Position numbers and translations under genes: made by a program
Source of the DNA: Sphingopyxis witflariensis
GTDB lineage: Bacteria; Pseudomonadota; Alphaproteobacteria; Sphingomonadales; Sphingomonadaceae
Length of the DNA: 64,000 bases
Assembly: GCF_002205635.1 (NCBI RefSeq)
Contig: NZ_NISJ01000002.1
Span: 62,001 to 126,000, forward strand
Reading direction: 5' to 3'
Shown here: in pieces, positions 614 to 62,586 of the stretch
Position numbering within the stretch: position 1 is the stretch's first letter
How the letters are laid out: each line of letters starts with the position of its first letter
Notes under the pieces: generated by a model
The model's input: the letters and a program-made list of their open reading frames with translations, nothing else
What the model was told of the DNA's origin: nothing
The model's database searches: none

Positions 614-640
614 TTGAAATCGTCATACCACTTGTATAGT
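614..640 (+). promoter_or_regulatory. Candidate promoter with overlapping GntR operator before the alginate lyase genes
   Basis: TTGAAA (614-619) and TATAGT (635-640) resemble -35 and -10 boxes with a short 15-base spacer. Between and over them is CATAC (624-628), five bases, then GTATA (634-638). A close relative of this pair (CATAC-N6-GTATG) lies before the GntR gene at 11907-11922, and a weaker one before the TonB receptor gene at 8008. A repressor bound here would cover the -10 box. The assignment is inferred from position and recurrence. Confidence 0.5.
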
Positions 641-677
641 CCAATGCCGCATAAGACATTCCCCGGGAAGGAACGAC

Positions 678-2900
678 ATGCTGCTGCGGACGGCTTTAAC
701 ATTGGCGATCACGGCCGCGGCAGCGCACCCGGCGCTCGCCCGCGATATATTGGTCGCCGACCAGACCCAGTTCAAGGCGGCGGTCAAAGCCGCAAAGGCG
801 GGCGACTCGATCCTTCTCGCCGATGGCGAATGGCGCGACTTTCAGGCCGTCCTCTCTGGCGAAGGCCGCACCGACAAACCGATCACCCTCACCGCACAGA
901 CCAAGGGTAAGGTTGTCCTGACCGGCCAGTCGAACCTGCGCCTCAGCGGACGTCATCTGGTCGTATCGGGCCTGATCTTCCGCGACGGCTTCAGCCCGAC
1001 AAGCGAGGTCATTTCCTTCCGCCGCGATTCCAGGTCGTTCGCGCAAGATTCGCGCATCACCGAAGTGGTGATCGACGGTTACAGCAAGACCGACCGCCGC
1101 GCCGAGGATATGTGGGTCGCGCTCTATGGCACCGGAAACCGCGTCGATCATTCGCATTTCGAGGGCAAGACCAACGCGGGCGTTACCCTCGCAGTCATCC
1201 GCCGCGCCGGCCAGCCGCTCGATAACCGCCATCGCATCGATCATAATTATTTCGGCCCGCGCCCACCGCTTGGCTCGAACGGAGGCGAAACGATCCGCAT
1301 CGGCACCAGCGAGGAATCGCTCTCGGCATCGAACACGATCGTCGAACGCAATATCTTCGACCGCACCAGCGGCGAGGTCGAGATCGTCTCGGTGAAGTCA
1401 GGCGGCAACATCTTGCGAGAAAATCTGGTGCTGTCGTCACAGGGTGCCTTTGTGCTGCGCCACGGCAACGGCAATCGCGTCGAGCGCAACATCTTCTTCG
1501 GCAACAATGTTCCCGACAGCGGCGGCGTCCGCATCATCAACCGCGACCAGACCGTCCGCGACAATTATTTCGAGGGCCTCGCTGGTAAGGATTTAAAGAG
1601 CGCAATCAGCGTGATGAACGGCGTTCCTAATTCAGTGATCAACCGCTATCATCAGGTTTCAGGCGCGGTGATCGAACACAATTCAATCGTCGGTAGCGCG
1701 CGTATCACCTTTGCTGCGGGCGCCGACGCCGAACGCTCGGCGCCGCCGATCGACAGCCGCTTCAGCCACAATCTGATCGCAGGCGCGAACGGCAGCGACC
1801 CGTTTCGCGTCGACGGCGATATCGCCGGCATCGCGCTGGCGGGCAATGTCGAGGCGAAGGTCGCCAAGCCGTTGCTGACCAGCGGCGTCGAACAGCGCGA
1901 CGTTGCGCTCGTTCGCGCGCCGAACGGCCTGCTCTATCCGACCGACCCCACGCTGGCGAATGTCGGCGCGCCGCGCGATCTGGTGCCGGTCAAGCGCGAG
2001 GAAGCAGGTGTGTCCTGGTACCGCTCGGCTGCGGCCGAAGCCGCTTTCGGCGCGGGCCGCACCATTCCCCTCACCGCTGCGGCTTCGCTGGCGGAAGCGG
2101 TCACTACTTCGCGGCCCGGCGACACGCTGGCGCTGGCATCCGGCGCTTATGACGTCTTGGCGCCGATCGCGATCCGCCACCGCCTGACCATCGCCGGCCA
2201 AAAGGGCGCCAACCCCATATTGCGGCTCGCCACCGGCGGGCTCGCGCGGGTCGAAGCGGGCGGCGGTCTGAAGCTCGAACGGGTCGAGATCGACGCCCGC
2301 GCCGCGCGGACGGATGCCGTACTGGTCGCCATCGGCGCCGACGTCGCCCCCAATTACAGCATCGCAATGCATGGCGTCACGGTGCGTGGTCCCGGCGCGA
2401 AAGCCCGGATCGACGGCATCACGATGGCGCCCGGCACCTTCGCCGACGCAATCGACATTACCGGCAGCCGCTTCACCGACTTGGCAGGCGCGGTCGTCCT
2501 CGGCACCGCCGAGCAAACACCCAAAGGCTGGTATCCGGTCGAACGGCTGACAATCGCCGACAGCCATTTCACGCGCGTCGGCATGGTCGCCGACCTGCTG
2601 CGCAAGGGCAGCGACGAGAGCACCTTTGGCCCCTGGTTCGCGATGACCGAATCGCAGGTCACCGACAGCGGCGCCGATGACGCTTCGCTGCGCCTCTCGG
2701 GCGTTCAGCATACGGCGATCACCGGCAATGACTTCACCCGATCGGCGCCTGTCACCTTGATCCACTCGGTTGGCACCCCCGACACGCGCATCACCAAGAA
2801 CCGCTTCATCGCGACCCCCGAGCCCCGGATCGAGGAACTCGCCTATAAGGGGCCGGTCCGCGCAAAACTGTCAGACAATATAGTGGAGGCCCGCCCGTGA
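678..2900 (+). CDS. PL6-family alginate lyase (poly-beta-D-mannuronate lyase type)
   Basis: Secreted endo- or exo-acting lyase that cuts alginate by beta-elimination. Residues 1-21 are a signal peptide ending in ALA. The rest fits a two-domain parallel beta-helix of the chondroitinase B/PL6 family, and 740 residues is a normal length for a two-domain member. Calcium ligands N201, E233 and E235 and catalytic K240 and R261 have the same spacing as Asn181, Glu213, Glu215, Lys220 and Arg241 of the characterised enzyme AlyGC (recalled, not computed). The start ATG follows GGGAAGGAACGAC, a good ribosome site. The stop overlaps the next start as GTGA, so PL6 and PL17 are translationally coupled. Confidence 0.93.
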   Translation: MLLRTALTLAITAAAAHPALARDILVADQTQFKAAVKAAKAGDSILLADGEWRDFQAVLSGEGRTDKPITLTAQTKGKVVLTGQSNLRLSGRHLVVSGLIFRDGFSPTSEVISFRRDSRSFAQDSRITEVVIDGYSKTDRRAEDMWVALYGTGNRVDHSHFEGKTNAGVTLAVIRRAGQPLDNRHRIDHNYFGPRPPLGSNGGETIRIGTSEESLSASNTIVERNIFDRTSGEVEIVSVKSGGNILRENLVLSSQGAFVLRHGNGNRVERNIFFGNNVPDSGGVRIINRDQTVRDNYFEGLAGKDLKSAISVMNGVPNSVINRYHQVSGAVIEHNSIVGSARITFAAGADAERSAPPIDSRFSHNLIAGANGSDPFRVDGDIAGIALAGNVEAKVAKPLLTSGVEQRDVALVRAPNGLLYPTDPTLANVGAPRDLVPVKREEAGVSWYRSAAAEAAFGAGRTIPLTAAASLAEAVTTSRPGDTLALASGAYDVLAPIAIRHRLTIAGQKGANPILRLATGGLARVEAGGGLKLERVEIDARAARTDAVLVAIGADVAPNYSIAMHGVTVRGPGAKARIDGITMAPGTFADAIDITGSRFTDLAGAVVLGTAEQTPKGWYPVERLTIADSHFTRVGMVADLLRKGSDESTFGPWFAMTESQVTDSGADDASLRLSGVQHTAITGNDFTRSAPVTLIHSVGTPDTRITKNRFIATPEPRIEELAYKGPVRAKLSDNIVEARP

Positions 2901-5062
2901 CCCGCACCCTCGCCCTTTTGCTTGCGGCCGCCGCCGCGACGCAGTCGATGACCGCCCCGGCGCAGACATCCGCTACCGTACCGCAGCCTGCCTATTCGCC
3001 CCTGTTCGCGGCCGAAATTGCGCGCGCCAAGTCCGGTGTCGAGGCATCGATCCGTGCGGGTGTGCATGTTCCCGTCCCCAAGGATCCGGGTGGCGGCGTC
3101 ACCCACGAACAGCATAAGCGCAATTATCGCACGATCTTCGAAGGCGGCCAGTTGTACCGCTTGACCGGAGACGTGCGCTACCGCGATCATGTCCGCGACC
3201 TGCTGCTCGCTTATGCCGACCTTTATCCGAAGCTCGGCCCCCACCCCGCCGCCGCCAATCAGGTGCCCGGCCGACTGTTCTGGCAAAGTCTCAACGACAG
3301 CGTGTTCCTGGTGAATGCCGCGCAGGGCTATGGCGCGATCCGCGATACGCTGCCCGCCGCCGACCGTACGCGCATCGACGACAATATGATCCGCCCGATG
3401 GCGCGCTTCCTGTCCGACGGCTCGCCCGAGGTGATCAATCGCATTCACAATCACGCGACCTGGGCCGCGGCCGGGGTCGGCCTGTCGGGCTATTTGCTCG
3501 GCGACCGCGACCTTGTCGACAAGGCGCTGCTCGGTCTCGACAAGAGCGGCAAGGCGGGCTTCCTGCGCCAGCTCGACCTGCTTTTCTCGCCCGACGGCTA
3601 TTATGCCGAAGGTCCCTATTATCAACGCTATGCACTGCAACCTTTTGTCGTGTTCGCAGCTGCGATTGCGGCCCATGATCCCGACCGCAAAATTTTCGAA
3701 CATCGCGATGGGATCGTCCTGAAGGCCGTGCGCACCGCGATCGAAGTGACGCATGACGGCAATTTCCTGCCGCTCAACGATGCGATGCCCGACAAGAGCT
3801 TGCGCACTGAAGAACTCTATCACGCGGTTGCCATCGCCTATGCCGCGACGAAGGATCCGGCATTCCTGTCGATCGCTGACTGGCAAGGCCGCTCGGTGCT
3901 GACGCCCGCCGGGCAAGTGATGGCGTCCGATCTCGCGGCGGGCAAGGCAAAGCCCTGGCCCTTCGCTTCGCGCCTGCTTGGCGACGGCCCCGACGGCGAG
4001 CAGGGCGCGCTCGTCCTGCTGCGCACCAAGCCCGATCCGAGGGGGCCGCTACTCGTCGCCAAGAACAGCGTTCAGGGCATGGGCCACGGCCATTTCGATC
4101 GGCTCGGCTGGCTCTATTATGACGAGACCGGCGCAGTGGTCACCGATTATGGCGCGGCGCGCTTCCTGAATGTCGAGGCAAAACGCGGCGGACGCTATCT
4201 GCCCGAGAATGACAGTTGGGCGAGCGCGACAGTTGCGCACAACACTCTTGTTGTCGATGAACAGAGTCACTTCGCAGGCAACTGGAAAACAGGAGAAAAA
4301 TATCCCACGCAACAGCTCGCAACCGCGCTCGATGGCCCAACGCGTTACTCGATCGCCGAGATCGGCACGGCGTATAAAGACGTGCGCTTTCGCCGCGCGC
4401 TGTTGCTGCTCGACGTCCCCGGCCTCGCCAATCCGTTGACGCTCGATCTGCTTCGCGCGTCGAGCGGCACCAAGCATCGCTACGACTTGCCGCTCCATTT
4501 CTCGGGGCATATCATCGACAACGACATCGCGTTCACCCGCAACCTCGCCGAACGGCCGGTGCTGGGGAAAGCCAACGGCTATCAGCATCTGTGGGTCGAC
4601 GGCGAAGGAACGAAGGCGGGCAAGGCTCGGCTGACGTGGATGCAGGGCAGCCGTTTCTACAGCTATCACATGCTCCCACCCGCGGGCGCCCGCTTCATCG
4701 TCGCCGAAAGCGGCGCGAACGACCCCGAGTTCAACCTGCGCCGCGAACCCGCGCTGATCCAGCGCCTCGACGGCGCTGCGGACGCGACTTTCGTCAGCCT
4801 GCTCGAACCGCATGGCGAATATGACGCCTCGTCCGAGGCGGTTGTCGCGAGCAGCGCGCGGGTCACCGCGCTCGAGCATCGCCGCGAAGGCGCCGCCGAC
4901 CTGATCCTCGTCACATTGGTCGACGGGCGGCGCTTCGCCGTTGCGGTCGCCGACGATGTTGCGGCGGGCATCAAGCATAGCGTGACGGTCGACGGCCGCG
5001 CCCTCGCATGGACCGGCCCCGTCGGCCGCTTCGACCTCGCCAAAACCGGAGCGAAGAAATGA
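2897..5062 (+). CDS. PL17-family oligoalginate lyase (heparinase II/III-like)
   Basis: Exo-lyase that releases unsaturated uronate monomers, which open to DEH, from alginate oligomers. The 721-residue protein has a signal peptide (about 1-23), an N-terminal alpha/alpha-toroid and a C-terminal beta-sheet domain. NHATW at 185-189 and EGPYYQRYA around Y242 match the Asn-His and Tyr catalytic residues of Alg17C (N201, H202, Y258), with the same 57-residue spacing. GHGHFDRLGWLYY near 395 is the family motif of the second domain. The GTG start is chosen because GGAGG lies 7 bases upstream. It ends with an ATGA overlap into the transporter gene. Confidence 0.93.
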   Translation: MTRTLALLLAAAAATQSMTAPAQTSATVPQPAYSPLFAAEIARAKSGVEASIRAGVHVPVPKDPGGGVTHEQHKRNYRTIFEGGQLYRLTGDVRYRDHVRDLLLAYADLYPKLGPHPAAANQVPGRLFWQSLNDSVFLVNAAQGYGAIRDTLPAADRTRIDDNMIRPMARFLSDGSPEVINRIHNHATWAAAGVGLSGYLLGDRDLVDKALLGLDKSGKAGFLRQLDLLFSPDGYYAEGPYYQRYALQPFVVFAAAIAAHDPDRKIFEHRDGIVLKAVRTAIEVTHDGNFLPLNDAMPDKSLRTEELYHAVAIAYAATKDPAFLSIADWQGRSVLTPAGQVMASDLAAGKAKPWPFASRLLGDGPDGEQGALVLLRTKPDPRGPLLVAKNSVQGMGHGHFDRLGWLYYDETGAVVTDYGAARFLNVEAKRGGRYLPENDSWASATVAHNTLVVDEQSHFAGNWKTGEKYPTQQLATALDGPTRYSIAEIGTAYKDVRFRRALLLLDVPGLANPLTLDLLRASSGTKHRYDLPLHFSGHIIDNDIAFTRNLAERPVLGKANGYQHLWVDGEGTKAGKARLTWMQGSRFYSYHMLPPAGARFIVAESGANDPEFNLRREPALIQRLDGAADATFVSLLEPHGEYDASSEAVVASSARVTALEHRREGAADLILVTLVDGRRFAVAVADDVAAGIKHSVTVDGRALAWTGPVGRFDLAKTGAKK

Positions 5063-6342
5063 GCAATATCAAGGGCCGTTTCCGCTGGTGCGTCATCGGG
5101 CTGATCGGCCTCGCGACCGTCATCAACTATATCGACCGTAACGCGCTCGCCGTGATGTGGCCCGAAGTGTCGAAGGACATCGGCGCCACGAAGGAAGATT
5201 ATGCGCTGTTGGTGACGATCTTCATGATCTTCTACGCCTTCGGCCAGTCGCTCTTCGGGCGGATTTTCGACGCCATTGGCACGCGGATGGGCTTTGCTCT
5301 TTCGATCATCGTCTGGTCGCTGTCGATCGCGGCACATGCCCTCGTCCGCTCACTGCCGCTGCTCACCGTGCTGCGCGCAACCCTCGGCATCAGCGAAGCG
5401 GGCAACTGGCCCGGTGCAACCAAGGCCAATGCACTGTGGTTCCCGTCGCGCGAGCGTGCGCTGGCACAGGGCATCTTCAACGCCGGCGCGTCGCTGGGGG
5501 GTATCGTCTCGGCCCCGCTCGTCGCTCTGCTTTTCGTCTATTTCGGCTGGCGCGGGACGTTTCTGGTCATCGGCATCTTTGGCTTCCTATGGCTGCTGCC
5601 GTGGCTCTGGTTCTACAAGGCCGATCCCGAAAAGCATCCGGGACTGAGCGAGGAAGAGCGCGAATATATCCTGACGGGCCGCACCGAGGCGGGCCGCGAT
5701 GAGGGCCGCCGCATCCCGCTGGGCGAGTTGCTGCGCTATCGCCAGAGTTGGGGCGTCATCCTGTCGCGCTTCTTCCTCGATCCCGTGTGGTGGCTCTTCG
5801 TATCGTGGCTGCCGATCTATCTCGCCGAAACCTTTGGCTTCGACGTCAAGCAGATCGGCATGTTCGCGTGGGTTCCCTTTGTCGGCGCGATGATCGGCAG
5901 CCTGTTCGGCGGCTGGCTTTCGGGACGGATCATCACCGCGGGCGGCGGTGTTCACAAGGCGCGGACGCTAACCATCGCCATCGGCTGTGCGATCATGCTG
6001 CCGTCGCTGCTGTTCACCATGGGCGCCAGCGATCCGCTGACCGCAGTGCTGCTGATCGCTTGCATCCTGTTCGGATTCCAGATGGCGATCGGCAACATCC
6101 AGACGCTGCCGAGCGACTATTTCGGCGGCGGCGCGGTCGGCAGCCTCGCGGGGATCAGCGGCACCGCCGCGGTCGCCGGGACGCTGATCACGACCTGGCT
6201 CGTCCCCGTGCTCACCAAGACGAGCTACGCCCCGATCTTCGCGCTCAGCGCGGCGATCGTGCCGGTCTCCTTCCTCTGTTTCTGGCTGGTCGGCGGTCGC
6301 GTCGAACCGGTCACCACCAACCCCTCCAACACCCAAGAATAA
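5059..6342 (+). CDS. MFS uronate transporter, ExuT/anion:cation symporter type
   Basis: Twelve-helix inner-membrane permease of 427 residues. The N-terminal stretch VINYIDRNALAVM and the RATLGISEAGNWPGATKA segment after helix 4 are typical of the hexuronate and glucarate symporter group (ACS family). The likely substrate is DEH or unsaturated alginate oligomers, inferred from its place directly behind the two lyases. The ATG at 5059 is preferred over an upstream in-frame start at 5008 because it makes an ATGA overlap with the PL17 stop and gives the usual short cytoplasmic N-terminus. Confidence 0.9.
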   Translation: MSNIKGRFRWCVIGLIGLATVINYIDRNALAVMWPEVSKDIGATKEDYALLVTIFMIFYAFGQSLFGRIFDAIGTRMGFALSIIVWSLSIAAHALVRSLPLLTVLRATLGISEAGNWPGATKANALWFPSRERALAQGIFNAGASLGGIVSAPLVALLFVYFGWRGTFLVIGIFGFLWLLPWLWFYKADPEKHPGLSEEEREYILTGRTEAGRDEGRRIPLGELLRYRQSWGVILSRFFLDPVWWLFVSWLPIYLAETFGFDVKQIGMFAWVPFVGAMIGSLFGGWLSGRIITAGGGVHKARTLTIAIGCAIMLPSLLFTMGASDPLTAVLLIACILFGFQMAIGNIQTLPSDYFGGGAVGSLAGISGTAAVAGTLITTWLVPVLTKTSYAPIFALSAAIVPVSFLCFWLVGGRVEPVTTNPSNTQE

Positions 6343-6354
6343 GGAAAAAACAGA

Positions 6355-7107
6355 ATGACTCTCCAGGGCAAAACTGCACTCGTCACCGGCGGCGGACGCG
6401 ACATCGGCCGCTCGGTCTCGATCGCCCTCGCCCGCGCCGGCGCGCGCGTCGCCATCAACTATAACAGCGGCCGCGAAGCCGCCGAAGAAACGCTGGCAAC
6501 GATCAAGGCCGCCGGCGGCGACGCCTTTCTGATCCAGGCCGATGTCACCGACACCGCCGCGGTCAAGACGATGCTCGCAGAAGTCGGCGTGGCGTTCAGC
6601 GGCCGTCTCGACATTCTCGTCAACCTTGCCGGCGGCATGGTCGCGCGCAAGACGCTCAGCGAAATGGACGAAGCCTTCTTCGACCACGTCATGACACTGA
6701 ACCTGAAATCGGTCTTCCTCGTCCTTCAGGCGGCGCAGCCGTTCCTTGGCGAGGGTTCGTCGGTGGTCAACGTGTCGTCGCAGGCCGGCCGCGACGGCGG
6801 TGGCCCCGGTGCCTCGATCTATGCAACCGCCAAGGGCGCCCTGATGACCTATACCCGTTCGATGGCGAAGGAACTCGGGCCACAGGGTATCCGCGTCAAC
6901 GCCGTTTGCCCGGGCCTGATCGGCACCAGCTTCCATGACATCTTCTCGAAGCCCGAAGGCCGGGCCGCGACAGCGGGCAACACCCCGCTGCGCCGCGAAG
7001 GCCATCCCGATGAGGTTGCCGAAACCATCGCCTATCTCGCCTCGCCGGCCGCCAGCTTCCTCGCCGGGGTCTGCCTCGACGTGAACGGCGGGCTGTATTT
7101 TTCCTGA
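6355..7107 (+). CDS. Short-chain dehydrogenase/reductase, candidate DEH reductase
   Basis: Rossmann-fold oxidoreductase of 250 residues. The cofactor motif is TGGGRDIG near residue 11, with Asp where the classical motif has a third Gly; this variant is seen in many SDRs. NLAGG near 88, S141/S142, Y156 and K160 complete the active site. In sphingomonad alginate use an SDR reduces 4-deoxy-L-erythro-5-hexoseulose uronate (DEH) to 2-keto-3-deoxygluconate, the substrate of the kinase at 13513. That role is inferred from the locus; a gluconate 5-dehydrogenase-like activity is the main alternative. It follows the transporter by 12 bases with an AAGGAAAA ribosome site. Confidence 0.85.
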   Translation: MTLQGKTALVTGGGRDIGRSVSIALARAGARVAINYNSGREAAEETLATIKAAGGDAFLIQADVTDTAAVKTMLAEVGVAFSGRLDILVNLAGGMVARKTLSEMDEAFFDHVMTLNLKSVFLVLQAAQPFLGEGSSVVNVSSQAGRDGGGPGASIYATAKGALMTYTRSMAKELGPQGIRVNAVCPGLIGTSFHDIFSKPEGRAATAGNTPLRREGHPDEVAETIAYLASPAASFLAGVCLDVNGGLYFS

Positions 7108-7128
7108 TTGCATCTAAGGGAGAGGATT

Positions 7129-7968
7129 ATGCGCAGGCTTCTTACCGGGGTCATGGCCGCTGCACTCGCAAGCGGCGCGCAGGCACAGGAGGGCGAGCGC
7201 AGCGATGCGCCGCCCCTTCTGCCCTATAAAGTCATTTTGGTCGGCGATTCGACGATGGCGCCGCACAGCGGCTGGGGCGGTGCCTTTTGCGCACAGCATG
7301 TGAAATCGTCGGTTGCGTGCCTGAACACAGGACGCGGCGGACGCAGCACACGCAGCTATCGTCAGGAAGGCGGATGGGACATCATCCTCGCGGAGGCGGG
7401 CGTTCCGGGCTATCGCGAAACCTATGTGCTCATCCAGTTCGGGCATAATGACCAGTCGACCAAGCCCGAACGCCGGACCGACGAGACAACCGAATTTCCC
7501 GCCAATTTGCGCCGCTTCGTCGAAGAAGTGCGCGCGAAGGGCGCGATCCCCGTGCTCGTCACTCCGCTGACGCGGCGCGAGTTCAAGGACGGCAAGCTCA
7601 AGAACAGCCTTGCCAGCTGGTCCGATCAGGTGCGCGGCGTCGCCAAGGCGCTCGATGTTCCGCTCGTCGACCTCAACGCGCTCAGCGCGGCACAGGTACA
7701 GGAGATGGGCGCTGAAATGGCGACGAAGCTCGCGCAGGAAGCGCCGACCGCCGAGGAGCTGGCCGCTGCCCGCGCCGGAACCACGCTGCCCGCGCGCCCC
7801 GCCCCGCCTGCCCCGCCGCCGATCGAGGGCGATGGCGCACGCGGTCAGGTCACGCGCAAATTCGATTACACCCATGTGGGCGACATCGGCGCGGAAGTGA
7901 CCGCACGACTGGTGACGCAGGGCCTCGCTCGCGTCGCGCCGGGGCTTCGGAGCCAGCTGGTCCGCTAA
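7129..7968 (+). CDS. Secreted SGNH/GDSL esterase, rhamnogalacturonan acetylesterase-like
   Basis: The 279-residue protein has a signal peptide ending at AQAQ (about residue 20). The SGNH blocks are GDSTMA (Ser41), GRGGRSTRSY, FGHND, and YTHVGDIGA for the catalytic His. The order and spacing fit the rhamnogalacturonan acetylesterase group (CE12-like), which removes O-acetyl esters from uronic-acid polymers. In this locus O-acetylated alginate is the natural guess. A Pro/Ala-rich insert (about 224-240) precedes the last block. The ATG at 7129 is chosen because GGGAGAGGATT lies just before it and the signal peptide begins there. Confidence 0.85.
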   Translation: MRRLLTGVMAAALASGAQAQEGERSDAPPLLPYKVILVGDSTMAPHSGWGGAFCAQHVKSSVACLNTGRGGRSTRSYRQEGGWDIILAEAGVPGYRETYVLIQFGHNDQSTKPERRTDETTEFPANLRRFVEEVRAKGAIPVLVTPLTRREFKDGKLKNSLASWSDQVRGVAKALDVPLVDLNALSAAQVQEMGAEMATKLAQEAPTAEELAAARAGTTLPARPAPPAPPPIEGDGARGQVTRKFDYTHVGDIGAEVTARLVTQGLARVAPGLRSQLVR

Positions 7969-7973
7969 TCGAC

Positions 7974-8005
7974 AAATTGGACTACGCCATTGGCTAGTCC
8001 AATTT
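7974..8005. terminator. 32-base palindrome between the SGNH esterase and TonB receptor genes
   Basis: AAATTGGACTA (7974-7984) and TAGTCCAATTT (7995-8005) are perfect inverted repeats, and the loop itself contains GCCA-T-TGGC. The stem is A-rich on the left and T-rich on the right, so it could end transcription from either side. It starts five bases past a stop codon and directly precedes the receptor control region. TAGTCCAAT also occurs at 638-646 after the PL6 operator, so a protein-binding role is possible. Confidence 0.6.
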
Positions 8006-8038
8006 GACATACACAATTGTTGACAATTTTGTTACGAT
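8004..8038 (+). promoter_or_regulatory. Control region of the TonB receptor gene with a partial GntR-type site
   Basis: Two TTGACA hexamers (8004-8009 and 8020-8025) lie here. CATAC (8008-8012), six bases and GTTGA (8019-8023) form a degenerate copy of the CATAC-N6-GTATG site at 11907. No convincing -10 box can be assigned by eye. Confidence 0.4.
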
Positions 8039-8088
8039 GCTCAAGTGAATTGGTTAGAACAGATTCGTTTGACCAGGGAGAGACCGAA

Positions 8089-10959
8089 GTGAATTCTGAG
8101 AACAAGACCCGCGTCCGCGCGCTACGCGCCGCCTTCCTGACCGGCGCGGGATCGACCCTCCTGCTCGTCGCCATGCCCGCCGTGGCGCAGGACAGCGCAG
8201 CCGCCGACATCGCCGCCCCGAGCGACGAGGGTGACGAAATCGTCGTCAGCGGCATCCGCGCGACGATCCAGGACTCAATCAACGTCAAGCGTCAGGAAAC
8301 CGCGATCGTCGACGCACTGTCGGCCGACGACATCGGCGACCTTCCCGCGCTTTCGGTCGGCCAGGCGATCCAGACGATTACCGGCGCGACCACCCACCGC
8401 GAAAAGGGCGATGCGTCCGAAATCGCGCTGCGCGGTCTGGGGCCCTTCCTTTCAAACGCCACCTTCAACGGCCGCGACGCATCGAACGGCAGCGGCGATC
8501 GTTCGGTCAATTTCAACCAGTTCCCGTCGGAACTGGTGAACAATATCAAAATCTATAAGACACAGCAGGCGAGCCTCGTCGAAGGCGGCGTCGCCGGGAC
8601 GATCGAGATCGGCACGCTTCGCCCGCTCGACTTCGGCAAGCGCCGTCTGCAGGGTGAGATCAAGGCGCAGTACAACCCCTATGGCGACCGCATCGTCGGT
8701 GGATCGGGCGGCGTGGGCTGGCGCGGGACGCTGAGCTATGTCGATCAGTTCGCGAACGACACGATCGGCATAGCGATCGGCATGCAGCGCAACGACACCA
8801 ACAATCCCGAAGAAACCTATGCGGGGAGCAGCACCTGGGTCGCGTGCCGCGCCGACAATGTCGCGACCGGCAATTGCACCGAGCTTAAGCGCGAGGATTA
8901 TGGCAAGGCCCCCTTCTTCCTCGTCCCCAACGCCTATACCTTCCGTCAGATCAGCGAGACCGACAAGCGCGACGCGGTGTTCGGGTCGATCCAGTGGCGT
9001 CCGTCGGACCAGTTCAACATCAACCTCGACGTCCAATATTCGGACCGCACCTATGTCGAGAGCCGCCGCGACCTCAATCTGTCGGAGGGCCGCAATGGCC
9101 TGACCAACGTCGAATATGACGAAAATGGCATTGTCCAGCGGCTGAACGGCTTGAGCGCTCTCGAATCCAACGGGTCCGAACTGTCGCGTTCGGAAGAATA
9201 TCTCGGTGGCGGCCTGTCGATCGAATGGAAGCCGAACGATCGCCTGAAGCTGACGGCCGATGGCAGCTATTCGCGCACCATCCGTTCCGAGGTCGAGCGC
9301 AACGTTCGCCTGCGCACCGACCCGATGGACGTCAACGGCGTGCGCACCGTGTTCAACAACATGCGCATCCCCTATACCTATGAAATCCAGCCGGGCAGCT
9401 TCGTCCCGACGATTACCATCGATCCGCGCTTCGACCTCAACAATCATGATCTCTTCTGGGACGATGCCCGCTTCCGCCGCGACGAAGTCCGCCGCCATAA
9501 CGAAATTTTCGCAGGCCGCTTCGACGCCGCCTATGAAATGGACGGTTTCTTCAGCAACATATCGGCCGGTGCTCGCTGGTCACAGCTGACCTACCGCGAT
9601 TATGACGTCCGCAACGGCGACTTCAATTTCAACCCGGCGATGGCTGAGGACAAGCGCATCAACAATCTGTGCCGCCAGGCCTTTCCGCAGACCGATTATC
9701 TGTCGGCCGCAAAGGGCAATGGCATCAACAGCTGGGCGACCTTCGACGTCGACTGCCTGTTCCGCGAATATATGGGTACCGAAGACCCGGGCAACCTCGC
9801 CGACACGCGTTCTGACGCCAACCGGGACGTCACCGAACGCACCCTTGCCGGCTACGTGATGGCCGAATATGACGCCGATCTGGGCAATGTGCCGGTACGC
9901 GGCAACTTCGGTGTCCGCGTCGTCAACACGCGCGTTGTTTCCAATGGCCTGCGCAGCGGCCTCACCGTGGTGCCGAATGACGACGATCCCAGCAAGATCA
10001 ACCTCGCCCCCACGGGTGAGTTCGACACGGTGACGATCAAGAGCAGCAGCACGCGTATCCTGCCAAGCATCAACGCGATTTTCGAAGTCGCCCCCGACAC
10101 CCAGTTCCGCCTCGCGGGTTATCGCGCGATGTCGCGCCCGAACCCGAGCGCGCTCGGTGCCGGTCGCCGGATCACGCCTCGGGACGATAGTCTCGGTTAC
10201 GACACGATCGAGGAAGCAATCGGCGACATCATGTCCAACGGCAGCCCGCGCCTGAAGCCGCTGATGTCGTGGAACGCCGATGCCGCGATCGAATGGTATC
10301 CGAACAAGGACAGCCTGCTGTCGGCGACGGTCTATTACAAGCAGTTCAGCGGCGGTTTCCAGCCGGTCGTCTATGACGAAACCTTCACGATCGACGGCGA
10401 ACAGATCACCGTTCCGGTGGCGCAGACACGCAACAGTCCCGACAAGTCGCGCATCTATGGCCTTGAGCTGACCGCGGCGACGCGTTTCAGCTTCCTGCCC
10501 AAGCCCCTCGACGGCCTCGGCGCGAAGGTCAGCTACAATTACGCCGACTCCAATTTCGAGACCCAGGACATCCGGCTTGGCGACCAATATGATCCAGAAA
10601 CCGATACGGTATCGCCGGGGCTCATTCCGCCCGCCAATATCTCAGGCTATTCGAAGCATGTGCTGTCGGCGCAGGCCTATTATGAAATCGGCCCGGTGTC
10701 GCTGCAGGCGATCTACAATTATCGCTCGAAATATTTCCAGGACTTCGTCGGCGGCAACAGCCAGTTGCGCTATGTCGGGCCGAGCGAAACCGTCGATTTC
10801 CGGGCTTCGCTCGACCTGATGAAGGGCGTGTCGCTCCGCTTCGAAGCGCTCAACCTCTTCAACGAACCGAAGTCGACCTATATGCCGATCTATGGAAGCA
10901 GCCGCCAATATCATTATTATGGCGCGAAATATTTCATCGGCATCCGGGCGCGGATCTAG
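8089..10959 (+). CDS. TonB-dependent outer-membrane receptor, probably for alginate oligosaccharides
   Basis: The 956-residue protein has an N-terminal signal peptide ending in AVAQ, then an Asp/Glu-rich stretch with EIVVSGIRATIQDSI, the usual sphingomonad TonB-box and plug start. A plug domain follows (SVGQAIQTITGATT, ALRGLGPFLSNATFNGR), then a 22-strand barrel ending in the typical YFIGIRARI. The GTG at 8089 is preferred over an upstream in-frame start at 8017 because AGGGAGAG lies six bases before it and the signal peptide follows at once. Receptors of this type in polysaccharide loci carry oligomers into the periplasm using ExbBD-TonB energy. Confidence 0.92.
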   Translation: MNSENKTRVRALRAAFLTGAGSTLLLVAMPAVAQDSAAADIAAPSDEGDEIVVSGIRATIQDSINVKRQETAIVDALSADDIGDLPALSVGQAIQTITGATTHREKGDASEIALRGLGPFLSNATFNGRDASNGSGDRSVNFNQFPSELVNNIKIYKTQQASLVEGGVAGTIEIGTLRPLDFGKRRLQGEIKAQYNPYGDRIVGGSGGVGWRGTLSYVDQFANDTIGIAIGMQRNDTNNPEETYAGSSTWVACRADNVATGNCTELKREDYGKAPFFLVPNAYTFRQISETDKRDAVFGSIQWRPSDQFNINLDVQYSDRTYVESRRDLNLSEGRNGLTNVEYDENGIVQRLNGLSALESNGSELSRSEEYLGGGLSIEWKPNDRLKLTADGSYSRTIRSEVERNVRLRTDPMDVNGVRTVFNNMRIPYTYEIQPGSFVPTITIDPRFDLNNHDLFWDDARFRRDEVRRHNEIFAGRFDAAYEMDGFFSNISAGARWSQLTYRDYDVRNGDFNFNPAMAEDKRINNLCRQAFPQTDYLSAAKGNGINSWATFDVDCLFREYMGTEDPGNLADTRSDANRDVTERTLAGYVMAEYDADLGNVPVRGNFGVRVVNTRVVSNGLRSGLTVVPNDDDPSKINLAPTGEFDTVTIKSSSTRILPSINAIFEVAPDTQFRLAGYRAMSRPNPSALGAGRRITPRDDSLGYDTIEEAIGDIMSNGSPRLKPLMSWNADAAIEWYPNKDSLLSATVYYKQFSGGFQPVVYDETFTIDGEQITVPVAQTRNSPDKSRIYGLELTAATRFSFLPKPLDGLGAKVSYNYADSNFETQDIRLGDQYDPETDTVSPGLIPPANISGYSKHVLSAQAYYEIGPVSLQAIYNYRSKYFQDFVGGNSQLRYVGPSETVDFRASLDLMKGVSLRFEALNLFNEPKSTYMPIYGSSRQYHYYGAKYFIGIRARI

Positions 10960-10966
10960 GCGCGCG

Positions 10967-11875
10967 ATGCAAGTATCCGTCCTTGGCCCGATCGTGGCGG
11001 CGGCTTTGCTGGCAACAGCATCGCCCGCCGCCGCCTCGGACGAGGCGGGACCGGTGCGGATCGCCAAAGACATTCCCTATCTGACGACAGGCGGCAAAGC
11101 GTTGCACCTCGACGTCTATGTCCACTCCGCTGCCGCGAAAGCTCCCACCCCCGTCCTGATCCATTTTCACGGCGGCGGCTGGGCCCGCGGCGCGCGGCCC
11201 GAAAGCTGGACGGGCTTTCGCCCCTATCTCGCCGCCGGAATGTCGGTGGTAACCGTCCAATATCGCCTCGCCGGTGAAGCGCCTGCCCCCGCCGCGGTGC
11301 AGGACGCGCGCTGCGCGCTTCACTGGGTTAGCGCGAACGCAGCAGAATATGGCTTCGACACCAGCCGGATCATCGTCTCGGGCACCTCGGCGGGCGGCCA
11401 TCTGGCGCTGATGGCGGGATTGCTCTCCACCGACAATGATATCGACCTCGACGCCTGCAAGGCCGCGCCTAAGGCAGCGGCGATCCTCGACTTTTATGGC
11501 CCCGCCGACCTGACGGGGGGCGGAACCGTCACCGACGCACGGTCCCCGACGATCGCAAACTGGATCGGCGGCGGGTCAGACGCCAACGCCATGGCGCGCA
11601 AAATGTCGCCGATTACCCATCTCGCCCCCGATAGTCCGCCGATCTTCATCGCCCATGGCGATGCCGATCCAATCGTGCCCGTCACGCAATCGATCGACCT
11701 GAAACAGCGGCTCGATGCGCTGGGAGTGCCGTCCGACCTGTTCATCGCGATAGGAGGCGGTCACGGCAAATTTCCGCCCGAGCAGAGATCCGCGATGATG
11801 AAAAGAGCCATTGCCTTTCTCTGCGGCCGGAAACTGCTTTCCGCCGGCGCATGCCCGGCGCCAGAGGGAATATGA
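10967..11875 (+). CDS. Secreted alpha/beta-hydrolase, carboxylesterase/HSL type
   Basis: The 302-residue protein has a signal peptide (about 1-22, ending AAAS). HFHGGGWARG is the oxyanion loop, GTSAGG carries the nucleophile Ser141, and HGDADPIVP and GGGHGKF supply Asp and His. The fold belongs to the lipase GDXG/BD-FAE-like group, which often removes acetyl groups from sugars. It starts seven bases after the receptor stop and so is probably co-transcribed. Together with the SGNH esterase it gives the locus two unrelated deacetylase candidates. Substrate is not shown by sequence. Confidence 0.85.
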   Translation: MQVSVLGPIVAAALLATASPAAASDEAGPVRIAKDIPYLTTGGKALHLDVYVHSAAAKAPTPVLIHFHGGGWARGARPESWTGFRPYLAAGMSVVTVQYRLAGEAPAPAAVQDARCALHWVSANAAEYGFDTSRIIVSGTSAGGHLALMAGLLSTDNDIDLDACKAAPKAAAILDFYGPADLTGGGTVTDARSPTIANWIGGGSDANAMARKMSPITHLAPDSPPIFIAHGDADPIVPVTQSIDLKQRLDALGVPSDLFIAIGGGHGKFPPEQRSAMMKRAIAFLCGRKLLSAGACPAPEGI

Positions 11876-11902
11876 ATTTCCCCTTCGTCATGGGCTTCAA
11901 AC

Positions 11903-11922
11903 TTGTCATACCTGATTGTATG
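11903..11922 (+). promoter_or_regulatory. Candidate operator before the GntR regulator gene
   Basis: CATAC (11907-11911), six bases, then GTATG (11918-11922) is a perfect inverted repeat 36 bases before the regulator start. TTGTCA (11903-11908) could be a -35 box. The same half-sites lie before the PL6 gene, so autoregulation and locus control by the GntR protein is the simplest reading. Confidence 0.55.
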
Positions 11923-11958
11923 GACTCCCAAGCAGATAAATGGGGAGATGACTAAACC

Positions 11959-12705
11959 ATGGCCGAACGCCGCCTTTTTGAGGATGTCGCCGACACGATC
12001 CGGCGCCTGATTCTCGACGGAACCTATCCGCCGGGAACCCGGTTGCCCGGCGAGCGCGAACTTTCGGAACGGTTCGAGGTCAGCCGCGTCACGATCCGTG
12101 AGGCCGAAATTGCGCTGCAAGCGACAGGCTGGATCCATATCCGCACGGGCGCGGGCGCCTATGTTCAGGCGCATCTTCCGGGCGACAATGCCCTCCTCCC
12201 CTCGGTCAGCGCGTTCGAGCTCACCGAAGCGCGCTCGCTGTTCGAGGCCGAAGCCGCCGCACTCGCCGCGCCGACCATCTCGGCCGAAACCCTCGAAAAG
12301 CTCGAAGCCTTGCTGGAAGCGATGGCCGACACGAATGCCAGCGAGGAAGAAATCAACGTAATCGATCGTGAATTTCACATGACGATCGCCGCGGCCTCGA
12401 ACAACAAGGCGATCATCCATGTGATCGAAAGCCTGTGGCGGATGCGGCTGGAATTACCCGAGGTGCAGCACAGCCATGCAATGGTGTGCCAGAAGGATGG
12501 CAGCATGCGTCAGGCCGAACATGCCGATGTCGTCGAGGCATTGCGCAACCGCGACGGTGCCGGCGCGCGACTGGCCATGCGGAAGCATTTTAACCGGTTG
12601 ATCGAATCGATGCTCGACGAAACCGAAGAACGCGCGCTGGTCGATTTGCGCCGCCGGGCCGCCGAAAGCCGCGAACGTTATCTGCTCAGCGCCAAAATCG
12701 CCTGA
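11959..12705 (+). CDS. GntR-family regulator, FadR/UxuR subfamily
   Basis: 248 residues. The N-terminal winged helix (about 6-72) has LPGERELSERFEVSRVTIREAE, the standard GntR recognition region. The remainder is the all-helical FCD effector domain, with D..FH (DREFHMTIAAASNN) and later His residues that usually bind a metal and a sugar acid. This subfamily controls uronate catabolism (UxuR, ExuR), so DEH, KDG or a related acid is the probable inducer. It sits inside the alginate locus behind a palindromic site shared with the PL6 promoter. Confidence 0.9.
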   Translation: MAERRLFEDVADTIRRLILDGTYPPGTRLPGERELSERFEVSRVTIREAEIALQATGWIHIRTGAGAYVQAHLPGDNALLPSVSAFELTEARSLFEAEAAALAAPTISAETLEKLEALLEAMADTNASEEEINVIDREFHMTIAAASNNKAIIHVIESLWRMRLELPEVQHSHAMVCQKDGSMRQAEHADVVEALRNRDGAGARLAMRKHFNRLIESMLDETEERALVDLRRRAAESRERYLLSAKIA

Positions 12706-12724: not shown

Positions 12725-13516
12725 ATGAGCGCGTCACCCAACGCGCAGGACATTGTCGCTGCGCTTCTTGAGGCCCGTCTGTCGGGTCAGGCATTGCCGG
12801 CTTTCCCTGCCCCCGTCCCCGCCACCCTCGCCGACGCCTATGCCGCCCAGCACAAACTTCGCGTCGCGCTCGGCCGGCCAGTGCTTGGCTGGAAGCTCGG
12901 GCGCGTACCGCCGCCCCTCGTCGCCTCGCTCGGCGCGACGCGGCTCGCAGGCCCCGTGTTGCACTGCGCCGATCTCGATGGCGAAAATCCTGGCGAAGCG
13001 CGCATCTTTGTCGGCGGCGCCAGCGCGATAGAGATCGAGGTGATGCTTCGTCTGCGTAGCGTCCCCGATCACCGGATCGACAGCGACGACGAAGCGCTGA
13101 CCTATGTTGAAGAGGTGCGTGCAGGGTTCGAGGTTGCGAGTTCGCCCGCCCCTGACGTTTTCGACTACAGCCCCTTCGGAACCATCGCCGACGTCGGCAT
13201 CAACAATGGCCTGCTCCTCGGCCCGCAGATCGACCTTGCGGACTTCGACGAGATCGAGGTTTCGACCGAGATCGACGGCGTACATGTGGGGACAGGACGG
13301 CCGTCAGGCGTGCTCGATGGTCCGCTTGGCTCGCTACGCTTTCTCGTCAACCTTCACCACGACGGCGTGATCACGCTCGAGCCGGGGCAATGGATCTCCG
13401 CCGGAGCGATCACCGGCGTCCATCCGATCGCGGCGGGACAGACCGCTACCGCGCAATTCGGCACCGCAATCCGCATCGCCTGCACCACCATTCCAGACAC
13501 TGGATACCCAAGATGA
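12725..13516 (+). CDS. FAH-superfamily enzyme, 2-keto-4-pentenoate hydratase-like
   Basis: The 263-residue protein matches the MhpD-type hydratase/decarboxylase group: WKLG near 55, IEIEV for metal-binding acids near 102, and GTGRPSGVLDGP followed by LVNLHHDG near 192-220. These enzymes use Mg or Mn and act on 2-oxo acids. It starts 19 bases after the regulator gene and overlaps the KDG kinase start by ATGA, which places it firmly in sugar-acid catabolism. It is not a step of the known alginate route. It may hydrate or dehydrate a 2-keto-3-deoxy acid, but no substrate can be read from the sequence. Confidence 0.8.
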   Translation: MSASPNAQDIVAALLEARLSGQALPAFPAPVPATLADAYAAQHKLRVALGRPVLGWKLGRVPPPLVASLGATRLAGPVLHCADLDGENPGEARIFVGGASAIEIEVMLRLRSVPDHRIDSDDEALTYVEEVRAGFEVASSPAPDVFDYSPFGTIADVGINNGLLLGPQIDLADFDEIEVSTEIDGVHVGTGRPSGVLDGPLGSLRFLVNLHHDGVITLEPGQWISAGAITGVHPIAAGQTATAQFGTAIRIACTTIPDTGYPR

Positions 13517-14532
13517 CCTCGCCCACCAAAACCATCGCCTGCTTCGGCGAAACCGTCCTGCGTCTGGCCGTCCCCGTCGGCGAATTTCCGCTGCAATCGC
13601 CGCGCCTCGACACCTATGTTGGCGGCGCCGAAACCAATGTCGCGGTCGCCCTTTCCACTCTCGGCCATCCGGTGCGGATGCTCGGCGCGCTTCCCGACGG
13701 ACCGATTGGCGACGCAGCGGTCAGCGAACTGCGCCGTCACGGTGTCGATGCCGCGCATATGCTGCGTCCGGCGGGACGCATGGGCCTATATTATTACCTA
13801 CCCGGCGGCACGATGCGCCCCGCGGAAGTCGTCTATGACCGCGCCGATTCGGCCTTTGCCGCGGCGAAGGCCGATGACTGGCGCTGGGACGAATTGCTCG
13901 CCGGGGTCGATTGGCTCCATGTCTCCGGCGTGACCCCCGCGCTCGGACCGCAAAGTGCCGAAGCGACGCTGGCGGCGGTGCGCGCCGCGCGCGCAGCGGG
14001 CATCCGCATATCGTTCGACGGCAATTGGCGCGGCCGCCTGTGGAGCCGCTGGAACAGCGACCCCGCAGCGACCCTTCGCCCAATCGTCGCCGAAGCCGAT
14101 GTGCTGTTCGGTAACCACCGCGACGCCACGTTGCTGCTCGGCCGCGAATTTTCGGGCGATGGTCCCGACCGACGCCGCGATGCCGCGCTGGCACTCCTCG
14201 ACGCCTTTCCGAAACTCGAAACCGTCGCGTCGACCGCACGGCATATCGTCGAGCCGACGAAACATCAGATCGTCGCGCGCATCGATCGCCGCGACGACCA
14301 TGCACAGACCGAAACGGCCGATATCACGCCAATCACCGACCGCATCGGAACTGGCGACGCCTTTGCGGCAGGCGTGATCCACGGCCTTTTGACCACCGAA
14401 ACCTTGGGTGCAGCAGTGCAACGCGGACTGGCGCTGGCGGCGCTCAAGCACGGGCTGCAAGGCGATTTCGCTCCCTTCACGCGTCCCATGGTCGAAAGCG
14501 TTTCATTCACCGCCGCCGACGTCGCCCGCTAG
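13513..14532 (+). CDS. kdgK: 2-keto-3-deoxygluconate kinase (PfkB family)
   Basis: Phosphorylates KDG to KDPG, which then enters the Entner-Doudoroff pathway; the KDPG aldolase gene is not in this window. The 339-residue protein has FGETVLRL and GGAETNVAVAL near the start, the FDGNWR segment near 177, and GTGDAFAAG with catalytic Asp282. These fit KDG kinase among the PfkB sugar kinases. The ATG at 13513 is preferred over an upstream in-frame start at 13390 because it forms an ATGA overlap with the preceding stop and the conserved ACFGE strand follows directly. Confidence 0.88.
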   Translation: MTSPTKTIACFGETVLRLAVPVGEFPLQSPRLDTYVGGAETNVAVALSTLGHPVRMLGALPDGPIGDAAVSELRRHGVDAAHMLRPAGRMGLYYYLPGGTMRPAEVVYDRADSAFAAAKADDWRWDELLAGVDWLHVSGVTPALGPQSAEATLAAVRAARAAGIRISFDGNWRGRLWSRWNSDPAATLRPIVAEADVLFGNHRDATLLLGREFSGDGPDRRRDAALALLDAFPKLETVASTARHIVEPTKHQIVARIDRRDDHAQTETADITPITDRIGTGDAFAAGVIHGLLTTETLGAAVQRGLALAALKHGLQGDFAPFTRPMVESVSFTAADVAR

Positions 14533-61857: not shown

Positions 61858-62586
61858 TTAATCCGCTGTGGTCGGAAACGTCCCGCTGACCGAACCCGCG
61901 CGCCGGATATTCTCCGTCCCCGGTGCGGGAATGTCGAACGGCTTGAACACCGGCGGCGCAATGCTGAGCTTGTCGGCGAACAACAGCCGCCCGGGGCCAA
62001 GCTTGTAGAGGATCAGGGGCAGCAATTCCTCACCGAACACGAAACAGCCTTCGCTGCGCCCCAGCTTGCCCTGTGTGGCGATCAGCGACGGTTCGGCATA
62101 CCAAGCACCGTGGACGACGATCGCGCGCACATCGGCATTATTGTTGTCGGGTTCCAGCCCGGCGAGCCGCATAGACGAGCCGTTTCCGCCCAGATAATAG
62201 TCGCTGGTGCGATAGGCGCCGCGCGAGGTTGCGAGGCTGCCGACACGGTTCGAAAAGCTCTTGAGCCAGCCGTCGTGCTGAGGGTCTGACCCGCGGCCGT
62301 GGGTGACCGGATACATGTCGATCTTCCCCGCCACCATATCGACGAGCGCGAAGCGCGGGCGCGATGACGGCAGGCCGAAATCGACGATGCCAACACGATC
62401 GGTCTGCGTGATATTGCGCCCTTGGCGCGCGAGCTGCGTCCGCGCGACGGCCAGATAGTCTACCGGCGCGGGGGGTGCCGGCTGCTGGATCCAGCCTGGC
62501 ATCTGGGCGCGCGCCGAAGTCGCGGCCAACGCACCTGCGCTCGCCAGTCCCGCCAACATCGCCCTGCGATCAATCAATTCATTCAC
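61858..62586 (-). CDS. Murein L,D-transpeptidase catalytic domain protein (PF13645-like)
   Basis: 242 residues. IDRRAMLAGLASAGALAATSARAQ is a twin-Arg-like signal peptide. The mature part has VDFGLPSSRPRFALVDMV, VVHGAWYAEPSL and the active motif GRSEGCFVF with Cys181. This group is distantly related to YkuD transpeptidases and lacks the HGC motif of the neighbour at 60350. The GTG at 62586 is chosen for the signal peptide; the frame stays open upstream to 62766. Confidence 0.85.
   Translation of the reverse strand: MNELIDRRAMLAGLASAGALAATSARAQMPGWIQQPAPPAPVDYLAVARTQLARQGRNITQTDRVGIVDFGLPSSRPRFALVDMVAGKIDMYPVTHGRGSDPQHDGWLKSFSNRVGSLATSRGAYRTSDYYLGGNGSSMRLAGLEPDNNNADVRAIVVHGAWYAEPSLIATQGKLGRSEGCFVFGEELLPLILYKLGPGRLLFADKLSIAPPVFKPFDIPAPGTENIRRAGSVSGTFPTTAD

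Follow-up and report, generated by a model that had tools for sequence, protein, structure and literature searches.

The 64-kb window analysed here (positions 62,001 to 126,000 of contig NZ_NISJ01000002.1, out of the 4.31-Mb, 38-contig genome of Sphingopyxis witflariensis) carries a TonB-type alginate-utilisation cluster, and the subject of this work is the pair of short conserved sites lying before its PL6 alginate lyase gene and before its gntR gene, through which the GntR protein probably controls both the cluster and itself. Family searches place a PL6 lyase, a PL17-type lyase, an MFS transporter, an SDR oxidoreductase, a PfkB kinase and a TonB-dependent receptor in this single cluster; apart from the lyases, functions and substrates are assigned by context, and the enzyme specificities are predicted. 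DEH and KDG below denote acidic alginate breakdown products. The genes are as follows.

678–2900, + strand: PL6 (chondroitinase-B-family) alginate lyase (PF14592, 5e-106)
2897–5062, + strand: PL17-type oligoalginate lyase (NF042990 oligoalginate lyase, 960 bits, below the cut-off of 1400; PF05426, PF07940)
5056–6342, + strand: MFS uronate-type transporter (PF07690; TIGR00893 below cut-off)
6355–7107, + strand: SDR oxidoreductase, by context a probable DEH reductase (PF13561/PF00106)
7108–7968, + strand: GDSL/SGNH esterase (PF13472)
8089–10959, + strand: TonB-dependent receptor with a GTG start (TIGR01782, 512 bits, above cut-off; PF07715)
10892–11875, + strand: accessory alpha/beta-hydrolase esterase, start of the reading frame uncertain (PF20434)
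11959–12705, + strand: FadR-subfamily GntR regulator, GntR helix-turn-helix plus FCD (PF00392, PF07729)
12725–13516, + strand: HpaH-like hydratase-family protein of the gntR operon (TIGR02312, 30 bits, below cut-off)
13510–14532, + strand: PfkB sugar kinase of the gntR operon, a probable KDG kinase (PF00294; KDG-kinase NCBIfam models below their cut-offs)

Two related sites lie upstream of the PL6 gene and of gntR, each read here as a candidate operator composed of a box A and a box B, and a third element precedes the PL6 site.

620–644, + strand: PL6-promoter operator TCGTCATACCACTTGTATAGTCCAA, with box A TCGT-CAT-ACCA at 620–630 and box B TTGTATAG at 632–639
11903–11925, + strand: gntR-promoter operator TTGTCATACCTGATTGTATGGAC, with box A TTGT-CAT-ACCT at 11903–11913 and box B TTGTATGG at 11916–11923
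581–593, + strand: distal element TTGGTTTGA, some 40 bp before the PL6 operator, degenerate in the window

The upstream regions of gntR and of the TonB receptor were aligned from 22 relatives and the window, and the PL6 upstream regions were taken from the same 22 genomes. These relatives are Sphingopyxis-like genomes reached through their GntR relatives at 82–90% identity, the distant GntR matches L028 and L029 being left out, and together with the window genome they form a set of 23. The block common to the PL6 and GntR promoters is GTCMTACC-N2/3-TTGTATR, which takes the form TTGTC[AC]TACC-NN-A[TA]TGTATR in all 23 gntR promoters and T[TC]GTC[AC]TACC-N-[CG]TT[GA]T[AG]TAG in 22 of the 23 PL6 promoters, with every one of the 45 aligned sites keeping the box A core letters T, GTC and TACC. 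From the start of box A to the start of box B (TTGTATR) is 12 bp at PL6 and 13 bp at gntR. A first-pass annotation of this DNA had described GTCATAC and TTGTAT as shared by the two promoters; both are borne out, the common block being longer than described (GTCATACC and TTGTAT). Box A, as TTGT-CMT-ACC(A) with the variable M at its centre, resembles the FadR-subfamily consensus TKGT-N3-ACMA, for which the excerpts of PMC4494728 used here give a gap that is usually 3 nt and additional, weaker boxes 7–12 nt from the centre. With at most one mismatch this consensus is found in 23/23 gntR regions (2.2 expected; exact in 5/23), 22/23 PL6 regions (4.2 expected) and 22/23 TonB-receptor regions (6.0 expected), comparisons that are not significance levels, orthologous promoters not being independent.

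The distal element is a FadR-like TGGT-TTG-ACAA in the genome of L023 by alignment, and an exact box was located in L047 only. Upstream of the PL6 site, TTGT-CAS-ACCA is present in nine of the 22 relatives, 106–107 bp before PL6 in eight of them and 288 bp before it in one, in all nine within the region shared with a divergent second TonB receptor. A divergent second TonB-receptor gene of this kind, about 29–35% similar, lies upstream of PL6 in 14 of the 22 relatives (L034–L051). An RNA element at the PL6 or gntR site was considered and rejected, neither site having a fold (z 0.8 and 0.2).

The relaxed pattern GTCMTACC-N1-4-TTGTRTR gave 42 matches in the 23 genomes and none for the reversed control: 22 fall in the 100 bp before gntR, 20 in the 100 bp before PL6 and none elsewhere. 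Since these very sites served to derive the pattern, their recovery is expected, and the informative part is that no match falls elsewhere. In 35 further genomes (reversed control, 2 matches) the pattern was absent from all four congeners that gave no GntR ortholog at E 1e-30, and both further congeners with GntR had a single match, before gntR by position. The two conserved motifs are specific to the locus and are present together with the regulator in the genus. The pattern TTGTC-N8/9-TGTATRG gave 48 matches in the 23 genomes against 2 for its control, distributed over PL6 (16), gntR (15), the TonB receptor (10) and other places (7). As a genome-wide regulon marker TTGGNNNNNCCAA was discarded as too common, with 48 places in the window's own genome against 27 for the control. 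Sequence-only covariance models were also run on the 23 genomes: R1 was built from the 12 distinct forms of the 23 gntR sites, R2 from the 12 distinct 25-nt forms of the 22 PL6 sites, and R3 from 17 TonB-receptor sites with the L011, L018 and L026 forms left out; in the first look at R1 and R2, 150 of several hundred candidates were scored. Run on the 64-kb window with filters off, a model of the gntR sites only had the PL6 site as its second-best match (E 1.6), and a model of the PL6 sites had the gntR site as its second-best (E 0.51), a cross-check that speaks for the reading set out below. The earlier proposal of one regulon within the locus, comprising the PL6 operon and the regulator's own operon, and that of autoregulation gain support.

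By its domains the regulator is a FadR-type (FCD) GntR protein. An N-terminal GntR winged helix-turn-helix (PF00392, 71 bits against a cut-off of 27) is joined to a C-terminal all-helical FCD domain (PF07729, 83 bits against 24.3), and an operator of the TKGT-N2/3-ACMA type is found near its own gene in Sphingopyxis, weakly so in other genera. ExuR-, UxuR- and NanR-type regulators have the same helix-turn-helix plus FCD build, and the 3-nt spacing between GT and AC seen in box A is the ExuR-type one in the excerpts of the consensus paper (PMC4494728). Judged by the curated cut-offs, the protein is none of these: ExuR (NF008571), its best NCBIfam match, scores 105.6 bits against 396, NanR (NF003011) 102 against 260 and UxuR 97 against 442. 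GntR is the sole regulator gene found common to all 22 relatives' loci, its own presence in 22/22 being by selection, as the loci were collected by GntR; the TetR fragment at 1–474 of the window is in none of them. In the same loci the HpaH-like protein (12725–13516), which has no Pfam match, stands between gntR and the sugar kinase in 22/22, and the esterase encoded at 10892–11875, after the TonB receptor and before gntR, is optional, being matched in 10/22.

AlgO of Sphingomonas sp. A1 is a member of the GntR family. It is named as an alginate-locus transcription regulator in the consulted parts of a review (PMC8286568), and the likeness to the window regulator is one of description: both belong to sphingomonad alginate loci, whereas Sphingomonas sp. 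A1 uses a pit/ABC import system and other lyases. The same parts of that review, reporting on Dudek et al. 2020, describe AusR of Zobellia galactanivorans as a GntR-family protein that keeps most alginate genes repressed until oligosaccharide effectors release it; it too is likened to our regulator by description, as a GntR-family protein in an alginate locus, and it differs in that its host is a flavobacterium with a different gene cluster.

Taken as a whole, the reading that the FadR-subfamily GntR protein (11959–12705) acts as a repressor of the alginate cluster and of itself through the PL6 and gntR operators is given a probability of about 0.75. Without alginate, a GntR dimer would sit on box A (TTGT-CMT-ACC), helped by the adjacent box B (TTGTATR), and would cover the presumed -35/-10 region of the PL6-PL17-MFS-SDR-GDSL operon and of the gntR-hydratase-kinase operon, so that their transcription would be blocked. 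An acidic alginate breakdown product (DEH or KDG) would then bind the FCD domain and release the repressor. The TonB-receptor operon would probably fall under the same regulator via a degenerate site. Binding, repression and the effector are proposed here by extension from the FadR subfamily and the AusR precedent, and the control of the TonB receptor is likewise a proposal.

Several results weigh against this reading. The PL6 promoter in the genome of L025 has no site. The two cross-model matches (E 1.6 and 0.51) are weak alone, because the PL6 and gntR forms differ by one base in spacing. Strict searches of the genomes with R1 and R2 missed the partner promoter, each returning its own promoter plus one weak partial match; the models therefore add no member to the regulon, nor do they rule out weak sites, and further weak or unlinked sites may exist. 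The motif lies over presumed promoter elements, and part of its conservation could be that of promoter sequence. Beyond the genus, GTCMTACC-N1-4-TTGTRTR is missing from 28 of the 29 genomes that have GntR orthologs (51–63% identity), and a FadR box with at most one mismatch occurs in nine of 27 gntR upstream regions against 4.2 expected. The single genome with the pattern (G142, locus L120) counts in favour of the reading: its one match, GTCATACCAATTTGTATG, stands before a permease-like gene, with a TonB-receptor match on the other side, about 6.7 kb from the GntR ortholog.

At E 1e-30, a GntR relative was found in 78 of 298 genomes of the family, and in 27 loci from other genera (51–63% identity; 3.7 kb each) a PL6 and/or TonB-receptor match adjoins the regulator in every case, PL6 in 20 and the TonB receptor in 23. 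With adjacency kept and the FadR box not clearly kept, the link between regulator and locus is therefore old, the operator sequence having drifted or moved. TTGGTAT, with at most one mismatch, is found in 20 of the 27 gntR upstream regions against 7.4 expected, and may be box B or a -10 element.

The alternatives concern what the conserved block is. In the first-pass annotation the operator was CATAC-N5/6-GTATR, an inverted repeat that would take one GntR monomer per arm, and three sites were listed, all of which are confirmed in the letters.

624–638: CATACCACTTGTATA, PL6-promoter match to CATAC-N5/6-GTATR
11907–11922: CATACCTGATTGTATG, gntR-promoter match with perfect 5-bp arms
8008–8023: CATACACAATTGTTGA, third site, left half only (CATAC at 8008–8012)

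The window has three matches at two places against 0.07 expected, and none of 100 shuffles reaches three. A genome-wide count upheld the expected rarity, with five distinct places (seven strand matches; reversed control, one forward and one reverse), and the clustering at uronate genes; the exact pattern proved not to be specific, only two of the five places falling in the locus. The other three, two within reading frames and one intergenic, lie in a cytochrome-c1-like frame (L001), in a panB-like frame (L005) and between a TetR-like and a RidA-like gene (L004), names read from translation and not from family search. At L004 (1501–1515) the palindrome CATACGGTACGTATG separates the divergent TetR-like and RidA-like genes and is probably the TetR protein's own operator. 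The perfect arms of the window's gntR promoter, the right arm GTATR kept in 23/23 gntR and 19/22 PL6 sites, and the CATAC/GTATGG boxes that recur in opposite arrangement in the TonB-receptor dyads of relatives all speak for the repeat. The left arm is replaced by CCTAC in 10/23 gntR and 16/22 PL6 sites, with a compensating GTAGR in no CCTAC-bearing site, the single GTAGR (PL6 site of L006) pairing with CATAC; CATAC...GTATG is thus not maintained as a dyad, and the inverted repeat is not the conserved feature. The repeat also mismatches the FadR-subfamily consensus in the excerpts of PMC4494728, and we consider it quite improbable as the operator.

The block might instead be mainly promoter, or the site of an unlinked factor, with GntR binding elsewhere. 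Two features bear on this.

635–640, + strand: TATAGT, a possible -10 hexamer that box B overlaps, its role read from the letters
11896–11901, + strand: possible -35 TTCAAA, 17 bp before TATGGA (11919–11924), a putative promoter element

Box B covers TATAGT or TATGGA at a plausible -10 place, CTTCAAA before gntR is conserved in 23/23 by alignment, and the TTGGTATAG-like sequences before gntR in other genera, the TTGGTAT matches given above, could be -10 elements. The first-pass remark that the PL6 site overlaps a possible -10 box holds for the letters, and a sigma-70 scan supported no promoter there or at the gntR site. A general promoter would recur, whereas the block is found at the locus only in the 23 genomes; GntR is the only shared regulator gene found in the loci it was used to collect; and box A falls in the spacer region. 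Promoter sequence is not normally conserved in the spacer. This alternative is accordingly thought improbable.

For the third site the balance is different, and the relevant features are these.

8005–8026, - strand: TonB-receptor promoter element TTGACATACACAATTGTTGACAA, minus strand TTGTCAACAATTGTGTATGTCAA, conserved in the alignment of 23
7973–8006, + strand: hairpin-forming inverted repeat AAATTGGACTA...TAGTCCAATTT containing TTGGCTAGTCCAA (RNA fold -20.6 kcal/mol, z -5.7)

The element at 8005–8026 may be read as a degenerate, inverted box A-box B that overlaps a -35-like TTGACA. GTTGACA is present in 23/23 TonB-receptor promoters with CATAC just ahead in 18/23, many relatives carry TTGTCAACC-N4-TGTATGG on the other strand at the PL6 spacing, and the strict TTGTC-N8/9-TGTATRG is found in 10/23, the window's not among them. 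The site that had been noted as a left half is thus independently conserved, but more weakly related to the other two, and in inverted form. R3 recovered the TonB-receptor promoters in 23/23, along with matches that overlap the same dyad on the opposite strand and a few further weak ones, including G022:C68:1909 (E 7e-5). TGG-N5-CCA occurs upstream of the TonB receptor in 22/23 and is a dyad centre in 16/23, where between 10 and 16 of the 16 arm positions pair, a count that no more than 10 of 300 shuffles equalled; by this measure no such dyad was recognised in the window or in six relatives, the window having its own hairpin there. In the TonB-receptor upstream regions L006–L027 a 37-bp near-perfect dyad follows the GDSL gene, GTGTATGGCAAATTGG-N5-CCAATTTGCCATACAC in its L016 form, its 5-nt middle occurring in both orientations (TTAGT or ACTAA) and its letters being changed on both arms in L024.

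At this third site alone, the chances are even that the TTGG-N5-CCAA dyad serves as an RNA hairpin that terminates or stabilises the upstream mRNA and not as an operator. Its strong folds in the window and in two relatives (z -7.2 and -7.3), the 16-bp paired arms of L016 and L024 with their both-sided differences, its place just past the GDSL stop and the lack of a fold at PL6 and gntR suit a hairpin, whereas it has no T-run, the terminator scan lists nothing there, and a core TGG-N5-CCA kept in 22/23 despite differing outer arms suits a protein site. More tentatively, and on balance doubtfully, the operator may be composite: an asymmetric FadR box followed 12–13 bp later by a second TTGT box, the two standing in tandem at PL6 and gntR but oppositely oriented in the 37-bp TonB-receptor dyad, so that two dimers would bind side by side and three promoters would differ in sensitivity.

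Where the obvious inverted repeat of a single genome misled, comparing 23 genomes brought out the conserved site. No paper on alginate regulation in Sphingopyxis was found in the literature searched, RegPrecise and most subscription journals lying outside the search. The switch is real and cluster-specific, yet of an ordinary kind of bacterial gene control. It gives a regulator and a precise candidate operator to a complete alginate locus of the TonB type, in a genus that is common in fresh water and the sea, and the composite arrangement, if true, would add a new operator architecture to the FadR subfamily and give Sphingopyxis its first mapped alginate regulon.

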